From the NCBI GenBank assembly GCA_021300195.1, contig JAJTIE010000018.1, positions 148,393 to 212,392 of the forward strand: a stretch of DNA of 64,000 nucleotides, written 5' to 3'. A program made the position numbers and the translations under genes. The stretch comes from Bacteroidota bacterium. Lineage in GTDB: Bacteria; Bacteroidota; Bacteroidia; J057; JAJTIE01. A model generated the notes under the pieces. The model had not been told where the DNA came from and did not search any database. It worked only from the letters and a program-made list of their open reading frames with translations. Shown here piece after piece: positions 22,089-31,127 of the stretch (positions within the stretch are counted from its first letter, which is position 1; every line of letters starts with the position of its first letter).

Positions 22089-22454
22089 GGGGATGACATG
22101 GACTAGACGGGCTGCGCGGGTATAGGGTATAAGCATGCAGAGCCGGGACGGTGTACCTCTTAAAACTGGATCGTCAGCCTGTAAATGGCAACCATTCTTA
22201 TGCGCTAGCCGCCTAATTAGTATTAGGACTCGCTAGCTACCGCTCGGCGGGCCTGTCTATCGGCCTTCCTCTGCGGTATCAACCTCAGATAGACTCGGGG
22301 GCGGACGTGCCTAAATCCCCCTAAACTTCAGGCACTGGGCTTTGTGCATTTGGTGCACCCTTTAGCACGAAGCCGAGACCCCAGGGCGCACTAAGCATGT
22401 AGAAGGCTCTATGGCCAGCTTCGCCGGACGGGGGTTCAATTCCCCCCATCTCCA
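22089..22454 (+). ncRNA. ssrA: Transfer-messenger RNA (tmRNA), tag GNHSYALAA
   Basis: tmRNA rescues stalled ribosomes and tags the broken protein for proteolysis. The acceptor stem pairs GGGGATG (22089-22095) with CATCTCC (22447-22453), including the usual G-T pair. A T-arm of GGGGG/TTCAATT/CCCCC type precedes the 3' arm. The tag frame starts at the resume codon GGC (22187) and reads G-N-H-S-Y-A-L-A-A then TAA at 22214-22216, ending in the conserved ALAA. The 3' CCA is not encoded: the discriminator A is followed by CAC. A strong terminator follows at 22461. About 366 nt, normal size, one-piece form. Confidence 0.95.
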
Positions 22455-22460
22455 CACCGC

Positions 22461-27059: not shown

Positions 27060-27443
27060 CTAGGGAGTCTTCAACTTTTCAGCTAGTAGCATCAGTAGCT
27101 GTCTATAGTCTTCCATCACCCCCCTGAGTGAGGCAATTTCTTGGTCCTTGCTTCTGATTAGCGCTTGTGTTAGCTCCTGTGTGTTATACGGAGATTGTGC
27201 GTGTTGGCTCTGGCCTTGCGAATGCTGGATAATCGTTACGAAGTATCCATCCTCGCCCTGTAGTAGGTTTGCTGGATCAAGTTCCAGCACCTCCGAAATT
27301 TTTACAATGCGCTTGGGGTTGGCTCGCAGTCGTCCATTTTCCAGCTTGTTCACTGCGGACTGCGAAAGGCCAATATGAAACCCAAGTTGCTCTTGGCTCA
27401 TCCCTTTGCTTTCTCTCGCTTTACGAATCTTATCTCCAATCAT
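27060..27443 (-). CDS. XRE-family transcriptional regulator
   Basis: A 127-residue protein with an N-terminal helix-turn-helix (about 5-60: IRKARESKGMSQEQLGFHIGLSQSAVNKLENG) and a C-terminal coiled coil (about 88-127) for dimerisation. It is divergent from the TM2-domain gene and separated from it by a 125-nt AT-rich region with promoters in both directions, so it probably controls itself and that gene. Codon usage is AT-richer than in the surrounding genes. It resembles small XRE proteins found beside accessory genes in Bacteroidota. Confidence 0.88.
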   Translation of the reverse strand: MIGDKIRKARESKGMSQEQLGFHIGLSQSAVNKLENGRLRANPKRIVKISEVLELDPANLLQGEDGYFVTIIQHSQGQSQHAQSPYNTQELTQALIRSKDQEIASLRGVMEDYRQLLMLLAEKLKTP

Positions 27444-28799: not shown

Positions 28800-29552
28800 C
28801 TATGCAGGCCAGCTACTTTGTCGCGCATCCTGCATGGTGCCCGCTGGCGAGGGGAAGTGCAGCGTAAGGCGGGCGTATACTTGCCAGGCCTCTACCACCT
28901 CCTCTGGCCCCAGCGGGATGGGTGGGTAGAAGGTGTTGTCGCTTAGCAGCTCCAGTCGGTTCTCAGCACGCAGCCGGTTGCGCACCCGCTTTACCAGCAC
29001 ATCGCCCGGGGTAACAAATACATACAGGTGCATGTCTCGCAGCCACTTCAGCTCTTCTACGTAGCTGCAGATCAGCAAGTCGCCCTGGAACAGGCCGGGT
29101 TCCATGCTGTCGCCTGCCACCTCAAAGCCCCGATAGGTACCCTGCCGGAATCGATCCATGGGTAGGCTAAAGGCGGGTAGCTCCTGCAGATAGGTAGGCT
29201 CCAGCCGGTTGGCCACGTAGCCCGCCTGTGCTTTTACGGGCACCAGCACAATGTTGGGCTCGCTTTGCGCATCTACAGTTACGGCCAGTATGGGGCCCGT
29301 GCTGCTCCCCGTGGCCTGCTGCACGGCCTGCCTGGCAAAGGCTTCGCCCTGGCCGCTTACCAGCCAGTTCAGGTTTACGCGGTACTGCTCGCCTATCTTT
29401 TGCAGCGTGTCGAAACTGAGGGCGGTTCGCCCGCTGATCAGCTGGCTGATGGCACCCTGGCTGATGCCCAGGCGATCAGCAAATTCCTTTTGCGTGAGGG
29501 CTAGCTGCTGCAGCAGGTACTTCAGTCTTTCGTTTGCAGATTGATTTGTCAT
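28800..29552 (-). CDS. XRE-S24 repressor (CI/LexA-like)
   Basis: A 250-residue phage-repressor-like protein. The N-terminal XRE helix-turn-helix (about 8-65) includes LTQKEFADRLGISQGAISQLISGRTALS. A linker with AQAGYVAN holds the Ala-Gly cleavage site expected in self-cleaving repressors. The S24 peptidase domain has the nucleophile in VAGDSMEPGLFQGD and the lysine in VLVKRV. Such proteins repress operons until RecA-driven self-cleavage after DNA damage. It is divergent from the RecT-like gene, and sites ATTAGCA/TGCTAAT occur in the shared intergenic region, one half-site overlapping its own start codon. No other phage genes besides RecT are near. Confidence 0.88.
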   Translation of the reverse strand: MTNQSANERLKYLLQQLALTQKEFADRLGISQGAISQLISGRTALSFDTLQKIGEQYRVNLNWLVSGQGEAFARQAVQQATGSSTGPILAVTVDAQSEPNIVLVPVKAQAGYVANRLEPTYLQELPAFSLPMDRFRQGTYRGFEVAGDSMEPGLFQGDLLICSYVEELKWLRDMHLYVFVTPGDVLVKRVRNRLRAENRLELLSDNTFYPPIPLGPEEVVEAWQVYARLTLHFPSPAGTMQDARQSSWPA

Positions 29553-29558
29553 GCTAAT
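29552..29558. promoter_or_regulatory. Operator half-site at the repressor start codon
   Basis: TGCTAAT here (ATTAGCA on the reverse strand) overlaps the repressor start codon by one base. It equals one arm of the full site at 29585-29599 and suggests autoregulation. Confidence 0.4.
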
Positions 29559-29575
29559 ATTTTTCTGAGCTTTAC

Positions 29576-29606
29576 TTGACTTTAATTAGCATTGCTAATA
29601 TATTTG
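29576..29606 (+). promoter_or_regulatory. Promoter of the RecT-like gene (TTG / TAnnTTTG)
   Basis: TTG at 29576-29578 and TATATTTG at 29599-29606 are separated by 20 nt, the full Bacteroidota promoter pattern. Transcription would start near 29612, 17 nt before the ATG. The full operator lies in the spacer and abuts the -7 box. Confidence 0.75.
29585..29599. promoter_or_regulatory. Full operator between -33 and -7 of the RecT-like gene promoter
   Basis: ATTAGCA-T-TGCTAAT is a perfect 7-1-7 palindrome inside the promoter spacer. It is the best candidate binding site for the divergent XRE-S24 repressor. Confidence 0.65.
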
Positions 29607-29628
29607 TACAAATAAAGACATAAAAGCA

Positions 29629-30684
29629 ATGGAAGTCAAGCAAAATAGCGTTGAAAACGAGCTTGTTATGCACAATGGTATTAGCATGCTAAATAGCGGG
29701 GTTTCGGCAAAGCTGAGCGAGGCCGAGCGGGCACTCATCCGCGAGACGGTGGCCCAGGGTGCCACAGTAGCCGAGCTACAGCAGCTCTTCTACCTGGCCG
29801 ACACCTACGGGCTGAACCCCCTGAAGAATGAGATCTACTTCATTAAGAAACCTGCCATGGAGCAGGTGAATGGCCAGTGGCAGTACGTGCGGCAGGCAGA
29901 CGGCAGCCTGAGCTATGCGGGCAGCCAGGCCCTGCTGATGACGGGCCGAGACGGCTACCTGAAGATTGCCCAGGCGCATGCCGACTTTCGCGGCCTCCTG
30001 GCCTTTGAGGTGCGCGAGGGCGACCACTTCTGCATCGATGCCGATAACTACCGCATAGAGCACCGCTACGGCACCCACAGGGGCCGCATCCTGGGGGCAT
30101 GGGCCCGCTGCGAAAGGGCGGGCTATCCGCCGGTCATTACCTACGCGCCCTATGAGGAATACCACCGTCCGGGCAATTATGCCTGGACGCAGTACCCCTC
30201 TGCCATGATTCGCAAGGTGGCTGAGGCCATGGCCCTGAAACGCGCCTTCCGGATCAGCGGCCTGGTCACCAAGGAGGAGCTGGGCTACCAGGGCCCCCTT
30301 AGCCAGCAGCGGCCGCACCCACAGCCCGAGCCACAGGCCCAGGTGCGCGAAACCCTGGCTGCCCTGCGCCAGCAGCGTACGCTATACCAGCTAAACCGGT
30401 ATGTGCAGCAGCTGCCCGGCCCGCTAAGGCAAGACCGCGCCGTGCAGCAGCAGCTGCAGGCCCGCAGGGCCGAGCTGCTGAAGGCCGAGCAAAATAGGCC
30501 CGCCAGTGCGCGCCAGCTGGAGACCCTACAGAGCATGGCACTCAATCCCCGCATTACCGACCACGAGCGCAGCAGCATCCTGCAGTACCTGCGTGCCTAC
30601 ACCTACTATACCGCTTCCATACAGATCAAGTCTTTGTCCGACTGCATCCGCAGCCGTGGCCCGCGTACGTATGCCGCAGCCTAG
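29629..30684 (+). CDS. RecT/Bet-family single-strand annealing recombinase
   Basis: A 351-residue protein. The RecT/Bet core (about 25-225) shows LADTYGLNPLKNEIYFIKK, the long beta-rich middle (GYLKIAQAHADFRG, GRILGAWARCERAGYPPVI) and the late helix AMALKRAFRISGLVTKEE, as in phage lambda Bet and RecT. These proteins anneal complementary single strands in phage recombination. After a Gln/Pro-rich linker the last 55 residues (SARQLETLQSMALNPRI) form a helical tail like those of other phage annealing proteins. No exonuclease partner (RecE/Exo) or SSB is beside it. The divergent S24 repressor probably controls it. Confidence 0.85.
   Translation: MEVKQNSVENELVMHNGISMLNSGVSAKLSEAERALIRETVAQGATVAELQQLFYLADTYGLNPLKNEIYFIKKPAMEQVNGQWQYVRQADGSLSYAGSQALLMTGRDGYLKIAQAHADFRGLLAFEVREGDHFCIDADNYRIEHRYGTHRGRILGAWARCERAGYPPVITYAPYEEYHRPGNYAWTQYPSAMIRKVAEAMALKRAFRISGLVTKEELGYQGPLSQQRPHPQPEPQAQVRETLAALRQQRTLYQLNRYVQQLPGPLRQDRAVQQQLQARRAELLKAEQNRPASARQLETLQSMALNPRITDHERSSILQYLRAYTYYTASIQIKSLSDCIRSRGPRTYAAA
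29681..29692. promoter_or_regulatory. Second palindrome in the RecT-like coding start
   Basis: TTAGCATGCTAA is a perfect 12-nt palindrome with the same half-sites as the operator at 29585, located about 50 nt into the gene. It may be a downstream operator allowing cooperative binding or a roadblock. Confidence 0.45.
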
Positions 30685-30722: not shown

Positions 30723-31127
30723 ATGAACACCCCCTATACCCCCACCCGGCCCGGCACAGAGGTGCTGCCCATAGGCACCTGTGTGCAGGTGAACGGCTAC
30801 TACGGCCGCATTACCGCCGTGCGCACCCAGGTCGAAACCATCGACCCGGTTACCAGGCTCTCCGTCTGTGTGCCGATGCGAAACCCGGTTTACCACGTGC
30901 AGATCAACCCACGCAAGGTGTATGACCGGCAGCCCCAGGCCCGCACTATATGGATACGCAAGGGCCACACCCAGCTGCGCCTCTTTGCCGATGAGTTTTC
31001 TGTGATTGCTCGTCCGGCCTTTATGGACACACGCGAAGTAATCCGACGCTTTAGCAGCCTGCACAGCACGCAGCCCGCCGCACCCGCCTACCGGCGGATA
31101 GCCAGCCAAGGGGTGCCTACCCCATAA
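30723..31127 (+). CDS. Hypothetical protein downstream of recT-like gene
   Basis: I do not recognise this 134-residue protein. The first half contains a small beta-rich segment (GTCVQVNGYYGRITAVRTQVETID and PVYHVQINPRKVYD) that looks like an SH3- or KOW-like fold; the second half is basic and mixed. It starts 38 nt after the RecT-like stop with no terminator between, so it is likely cotranscribed and under the same repressor. Its place suggests a role with RecT or nucleic acids, but nothing in the sequence proves it. No homologue can be named. Confidence 0.6.
   Translation: MNTPYTPTRPGTEVLPIGTCVQVNGYYGRITAVRTQVETIDPVTRLSVCVPMRNPVYHVQINPRKVYDRQPQARTIWIRKGHTQLRLFADEFSVIARPAFMDTREVIRRFSSLHSTQPAAPAYRRIASQGVPTP

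Follow-up and report, generated by a model that had tools for sequence, protein, structure and literature searches.

An XRE-S24 repressor, a RecT-family annealing protein and an orphan protein form a probable chromosomal unit in Bacteroidota

A CI-type repressor transcribed divergently from recT is a common layout of phage early regions, and in the RecT and lambda Bet phage modules a gene of the RecT family (PF03837) lies behind such a repressor. The chromosomal XRE-S24 repressors of Bacteroidota have been published as non-canonical LexA proteins; they combine an XRE/CI-type HTH with an S24 domain and conserved cleavage residues, bind dyad-N5-dyad palindromes in which spacer changes abolish binding, act on targets that respond to mitomycin C, run large regulons and are sometimes encoded divergently from an error-prone polymerase gene (PMC8565304). 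FddR of Francisella, a co-opted phage-type S24 repressor, controls itself and a divergent gene through a shared palindromic operator, and its network is small and local, the main target being an uncharacterised protein (PMC13148647). SXT/R391 elements carry an SOS-sensitive CI-like repressor (SetR) together with an annealing protein, bet/exo (PMC3118119, PMC4344509). In this report, we describe a divergent unit of an XRE-S24 repressor, a RecT-family gene and an orphan gene, orf134, in a 64-kb stretch of Bacteroidota DNA (the window), which lies on contig 18 of a 2.67-Mb genome (G000), and we compare it with these systems. The comparison drew on 60 relatives and 395 genomes of the class, a sample of species, and two of these genomes recur below: G001 (MAG ACE_BAC9, JAHBTG01), which shares the family of the window genome but not its genus, and G002, from another family of the same order. 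The features of the unit are collected in Table 1.

Table 1. Genes and candidate control sites of the unit (positions in the window)
Feature	Position	Strand	Details
XRE-S24 repressor, 250 aa	28800..29552	-	HTH_3 residues 10-64; Peptidase_S24 residues 128-218
Probable imperfect operator TTTG-TCATG-CTAA	29545..29557	.	7/8 dyad bases; covers repressor start codon
recT promoter	29576..29606	+	TTG 29576-29578, N20, TATATTTG 29599-29606
Probable main operator, perfect 15-bp palindrome ATTAGCA-T-TGCTAAT	29585..29599	.	ATTAGCATTGCTAAT = TTAG-CATTG-CTAA plus 1-base extensions
RecT-family single-strand annealing protein, 351 aa	29629..30684	+	PF03837 3.7e-26; PHROG 2780 2.3e-31
TTAGCATGCTAA palindrome inside recT	29681..29692	.	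TTAG-N4-CTAA; no counterpart in G001
orf134, orphan 134-aa protein, third unit member	30723..31127	+	same direction as recT

The repressor has the full set of parts of a cleavable S24 regulator, as judged by Pfam (HTH_3, 2.9e-14; Peptidase_S24, 5.4e-12) and by alignment, which places an Ala-Gly cleavage site at Ala110-Gly111 (motif AQA-G-YV) and the catalytic dyad at Ser149 (in GDSMEP) and Lys188 (in LVKRV). The cleavage motif and the Ser-Lys dyad are conserved in all three repressors aligned, those of the window, G001 and G002, and the protein is probably self-cleaving. Two other S24-like genes found in G000 (on C25 and C28) have neither the cleavage site nor the Ser-Lys pair; by these residues the window repressor is the sole S24 regulator found in that genome with both intact, which leaves it the only candidate found there for cleavage upon damage. 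The earlier note on this DNA had read the locus as an XRE-S24 repressor divergent from RecT, and the Pfam domains, the cleavable-type residues and the conservation of the pair in a related genus bear this out. A second XRE-S24-like regulator occurs in both genera (G000:C28:3268-4125 and G001:C70:30600-31328) without an Ala-Gly cleavage site, and the G000 copy is also without the Ser or Lys, which suggests that some S24 regulators are no longer self-cleaving.

The divergent gene is assigned to RecT above the curated cut-off (92.3 bits against a PF03837 cut-off of 24, over residues 35-218), and the bet_lambda model scores 65.6 bits, short of its cut-off of 76.95. The AlphaFold model from two sequences was poor (pLDDT 44), a PDB search with the single sequence gave no match, and a profile search of the PDB returned only two entries, lambda Bet (E 0.054) and, through a low-complexity part, a Trp-repressor construct (E 0.029). 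The relatives of this RecT are mostly viral, with up to 52% identity in viral contigs. When viral and genome contigs were scanned by peptide pattern, patterns from the window protein alone recovered no close relatives, and those from an alignment recovered only G001 as a close one. ORF1 of Methanobacterium virus PhiF3 (MN737622.1, 409-1275), annotated as 'hypothetical protein', shares 42% identity with the core of the window RecT and represents an unannotated RecT in an archaeal virus.

The third gene, orf134, had been missed by the earlier note. It has no match in Pfam, PHROG, NCBIfam or PADLOC, no viral relatives were found, and the AlphaFold model of the protein alone was unusable (pLDDT 35). 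Good matches occur in only three of the 395 class genomes, namely the window genome, G001 and G002. A second, weaker match in G002 (G002:C62:24681-24929, E 2.4e-9) lies outside the S24 unit, and paralogs of orf134 may thus exist.

G001 has all three genes in the same arrangement (70% identity for the repressor, 59% for recT and 55% for orf134), with the adjacency of recT and orf134 resting on C96 and C100 being neighbours, since recT is cut there by two contig ends; downstream of the unit, both genomes carry a TonB-receptor-like gene. Between these two genomes dN/dS is about 0.2 for the repressor, recT (about 0.20) and orf134, which indicates that the three genes are kept by selection. Among the 60 relatives and 395 class genomes, recT of the window type was found only in G001, barring a weak match in G068, beside an ORF resembling a YqaJ-type exonuclease. 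In G002 a repressor ortholog (46%) and an orf134 homologue (31%) point away from each other, and that genome gave no recT match. Because this second family has the repressor and orf134 without recT, orf134 is taken as the older partner, and the repressor-orf134 pair appears to be older than the membership of recT. The simplest reading is that recT was probably inserted between the promoter and orf134 in an ancestor of the window family, a direction of change that we infer from the present distribution; loss of recT in G002 is conceivable as an alternative.

These data bear directly on the reading of the earlier note, a phage-like switch and a damage-inducible recombinase module, perhaps domesticated. 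A rival reading goes further: the locus would be the decayed remnant of a prophage or integrative element, in which a CI-like repressor and an early recombination gene retain their own switch and have no host role. The phage-like layout, the mostly viral relatives of RecT and the matches of the repressor to PHROG repressor families speak for it. However, the proteins scanned in the interval from 18.6 to 42 kb (part of the ORFs there) include no integrase, capsid or other structural, or lysis genes, in agreement with what the earlier note had stated. The GC content (60-62%) and GC3 are host-like, the genes are under purifying selection, the downstream neighbour is common to both genera, orf134 is without a phage relative, and the G002 version of the unit lacks recT. 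The tmRNA gene (about 22089-22457, tag GNHSYALAA) was considered as an integration site and rejected, no att-like repeat of its end being present elsewhere in the window. An XRE-S24 repressor is, moreover, present in 44 of the 60 relatives; in Bacteroidota such repressors are an ordinary part of chromosomal regulation, and 'phage-like switch' is therefore not the best description. We consider a prophage remnant unlikely, and the locus is probably a conserved chromosomal unit that gained its recT by insertion from a phage. The observation of the earlier note was thus right and its interpretation half right. Set beside the RecT and lambda Bet modules, the unit differs in being chromosomal and conserved, with no exonuclease or phage genes alongside. 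It differs likewise from SXT, which is conjugative and whose SetR represses setCD (PMC4344509); no conjugation or integration genes were found here.

The control region has a promoter common to the window, G001 and G002, of the form TTG-N20-TAnnTTTG: G001 has TTG-N20-TAAATTTG at the aligned position and G002 has TTG-N20-TATTTTTG ahead of its orf134 homologue. With spacers of N19 to N21 the pattern occurs only twice in the 64 kb, both strands included, and the recT promoter is one of the two. The probable main operator sits between the -33 and -7 elements of this promoter, with its dyad-N5 core at 29586-29598, and its TTAG-N5-CTAA form resembles the dyad-N5 form used by the non-canonical LexA proteins of Bacteroidota. 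The promoter with this palindrome exactly in its spacer, and a half-site TGCTAAT (29552-29558) touching the repressor start codon (CAT, 29550-29552), had been reported in the earlier note, all of whose coordinates proved accurate. A perfect 7-1-7 palindrome also arises in 2.3% of dinucleotide shuffles of 29540-29640 (101 bp), and taken by itself the palindrome is therefore modest evidence only. In addition, TTAGCANTGCTAA occurs nowhere else in the 2.67-Mb genome, which has only four TTAG-N5-CTAA sites as against 15 for the reversed control, and five TTAGCA half-sites fall within 141 bp (32 in the whole 64 kb), four of them as the arms of two palindromes. On these three grounds the cluster of operator-like sites is real, with no single palindrome being overwhelming.

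The sites of the cluster are not equal. The imperfect site at 29545-29557, which contains most of the half-site at the start codon, is among seven sites with at most one mismatch to TTAG-N5-CTAA in the 64 kb, and an ATGCT core is found at the aligned position in G001. The published requirement for an N5 spacer makes this site and 29586-29598 plausible candidate operators, and not the N4 site in recT. The 'matching palindromes' of the earlier note thus divide: the spacer site is a perfect N5 palindrome, the start-codon site an imperfect one, and the recT site, correctly located, is wrongly spaced and lacks conservation. As a third operator we rejected TTAGCATGCTAA, for it also lies within coding sequence and the 12-mer recurs in an unrelated gene elsewhere in G000; the intragenic site is probably a chance occurrence. 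That second occurrence lies in a glycosyltransferase-like gene in a contig-end overlap, both C39 (84-95) and C48 (39869-39880) carrying it, and since these contigs end in identical sequence they probably join.

Outside the window genome the exact palindrome is not kept. The control regions of the window and G001 are 67% identical (48 of 72 columns), third codon positions differing by 52-60%; the palindrome has lost its left arm in G001, where the (w)TGCT core remains at both aligned sites. What the earlier note named as refuting its reading, relatives that keep the genes but not the sites, is thus half seen: G001 keeps the genes, the promoter and the ATGCT cores but not the palindrome. The recognition helices differ between the two repressors, so some divergence of the operators is expected, which is not proof. 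G002 has a perfect palindrome of its own, CTTTGATAATCAAAG (TTTG-ATAAT-CAAA), just downstream of the promoter, and shuffles reach it in 7.9%. A repeated 16-mer, ATGCTTCTA, in the G001 control region was dropped as support for two operators, as 83 of 200 shuffles do as well.

A wider role would make the repressor the global SOS regulator of its lineage, that is, a functional LexA with recT-orf134 as one of many targets. That no other S24 protein found in the genome has its cleavage residues intact is in keeping with such a role, as are the large regulons of its described counterparts (PMC8565304). However, in a motif search none of the four TTAG-N5-CTAA sites precedes recA, dinB or any other core SOS gene, and matches to the operator 13-mer with at most two mismatches stand at the control level in the genome (22 against 21), so a wider operator regulon was discarded and the unit looks local. 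The tree points the same way. Among 23 S24 proteins, with the published reference LexA proteins of PMC8565304 left out, the repressors of the window, G001 and G002 form their own clade (100/99) outside a 13-row clade (100/99) that holds dinB-adjacent members and two with CTAA-N5-TTAG; published behaviour is therefore transferred to the window repressor by family resemblance only. Its own promoter holds the diverged dyad-N5 palindrome TTAG-CATTG-CTAA, which is not conserved in G001; CTAA-N5-TTAG is absent from that promoter, and GGA-N5-TCC is not among the dyad-N5 palindromes listed for it. A global SOS role is, on balance, improbable. By analogy the window repressor may work like the Bacteroidetes LexA proteins, yet with a separate clade, TTAG/CTAA dyads rather than CTAA/TTAG or GGA/TCC, RecT and orf134 as predicted targets and no sign of a large regulon, we do not file it as a member.

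Together, our data favour, with a probability of about 0.6, a self-contained chromosomal DNA-damage-response unit in which the repressor would hold off RecT and orf134 until damage occurs. In this model, a repressor dimer would sit on the dyad-N5 operator inside the recT-orf134 promoter, between its -33 and -7 elements, and would also bind the weaker copy over its own start codon, so that both directions would be repressed. After DNA damage, RecA filaments would prompt the Ser149/Lys188 dyad to cut the repressor itself at Ala110-Gly111, the cleaved repressor would fall off, and RecT and orf134 would be made; this order of events we infer from knowledge of the family. RecT would anneal single strands, probably aiding repair at gaps or broken forks. 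Against the model stand the lost left arm of the palindrome in G001, the shuffle frequencies of the palindromes, the separate clade of the repressor, the dependence of the recT-orf134 adjacency in G001 on two contigs being neighbours, and a nuclease partner having been found nowhere next to recT. The unit may thus work like FddR, a likeness of working and not of orthology: the divergent arrangement is found in three genomes and the operator is unique in its own genome, as expected of a unit of the FddR type, whereas FddR belongs to another phylum, uses a GTG-N11-CAC motif and has an unknown protein or DinB, not RecT, as its targets.

Some defence systems are under XRE regulators, and annealing proteins occur in phage-host conflict. 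With orf134 being an orphan, the unit might accordingly act against mobile elements, orf134 and RecT working against or during phage infection and the repressor sensing infection-linked damage. We regard this as very improbable, since neither RecT nor orf134 has a PADLOC match, PADLOC matches of the repressor are limited to the HTH parts of the models, and no defence genes were recognised adjacent to the unit.

More tentatively, and with the odds somewhat against it, orf134 may found a new damage-response family under its own S24 repressor, into whose unit, in one bacterial family, a captured phage RecT was wired, so that RecA-independent strand annealing became regulated within the damage response of a bacterial chromosome. 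If so, a chromosomal S24 damage unit would have taken a phage annealing recombinase under its control as a target, and the natural series from repressor-orf134 to repressor-recT-orf134 would show how local damage-response units gain targets; orf134 is an orphan protein worth testing.

Two minor observations concern neighbouring and related regulators. A small XRE-type HTH regulator of 127 aa lies at 27060-27443, 1.4 kb from the unit and beside a TM2-domain gene. In other Bacteroidota (L065, L070 and L073), an XRE-S24 gene adjoins a gene for a DinB/UmuC-like polymerase, in two cases divergently, which matches the published non-canonical LexA units.
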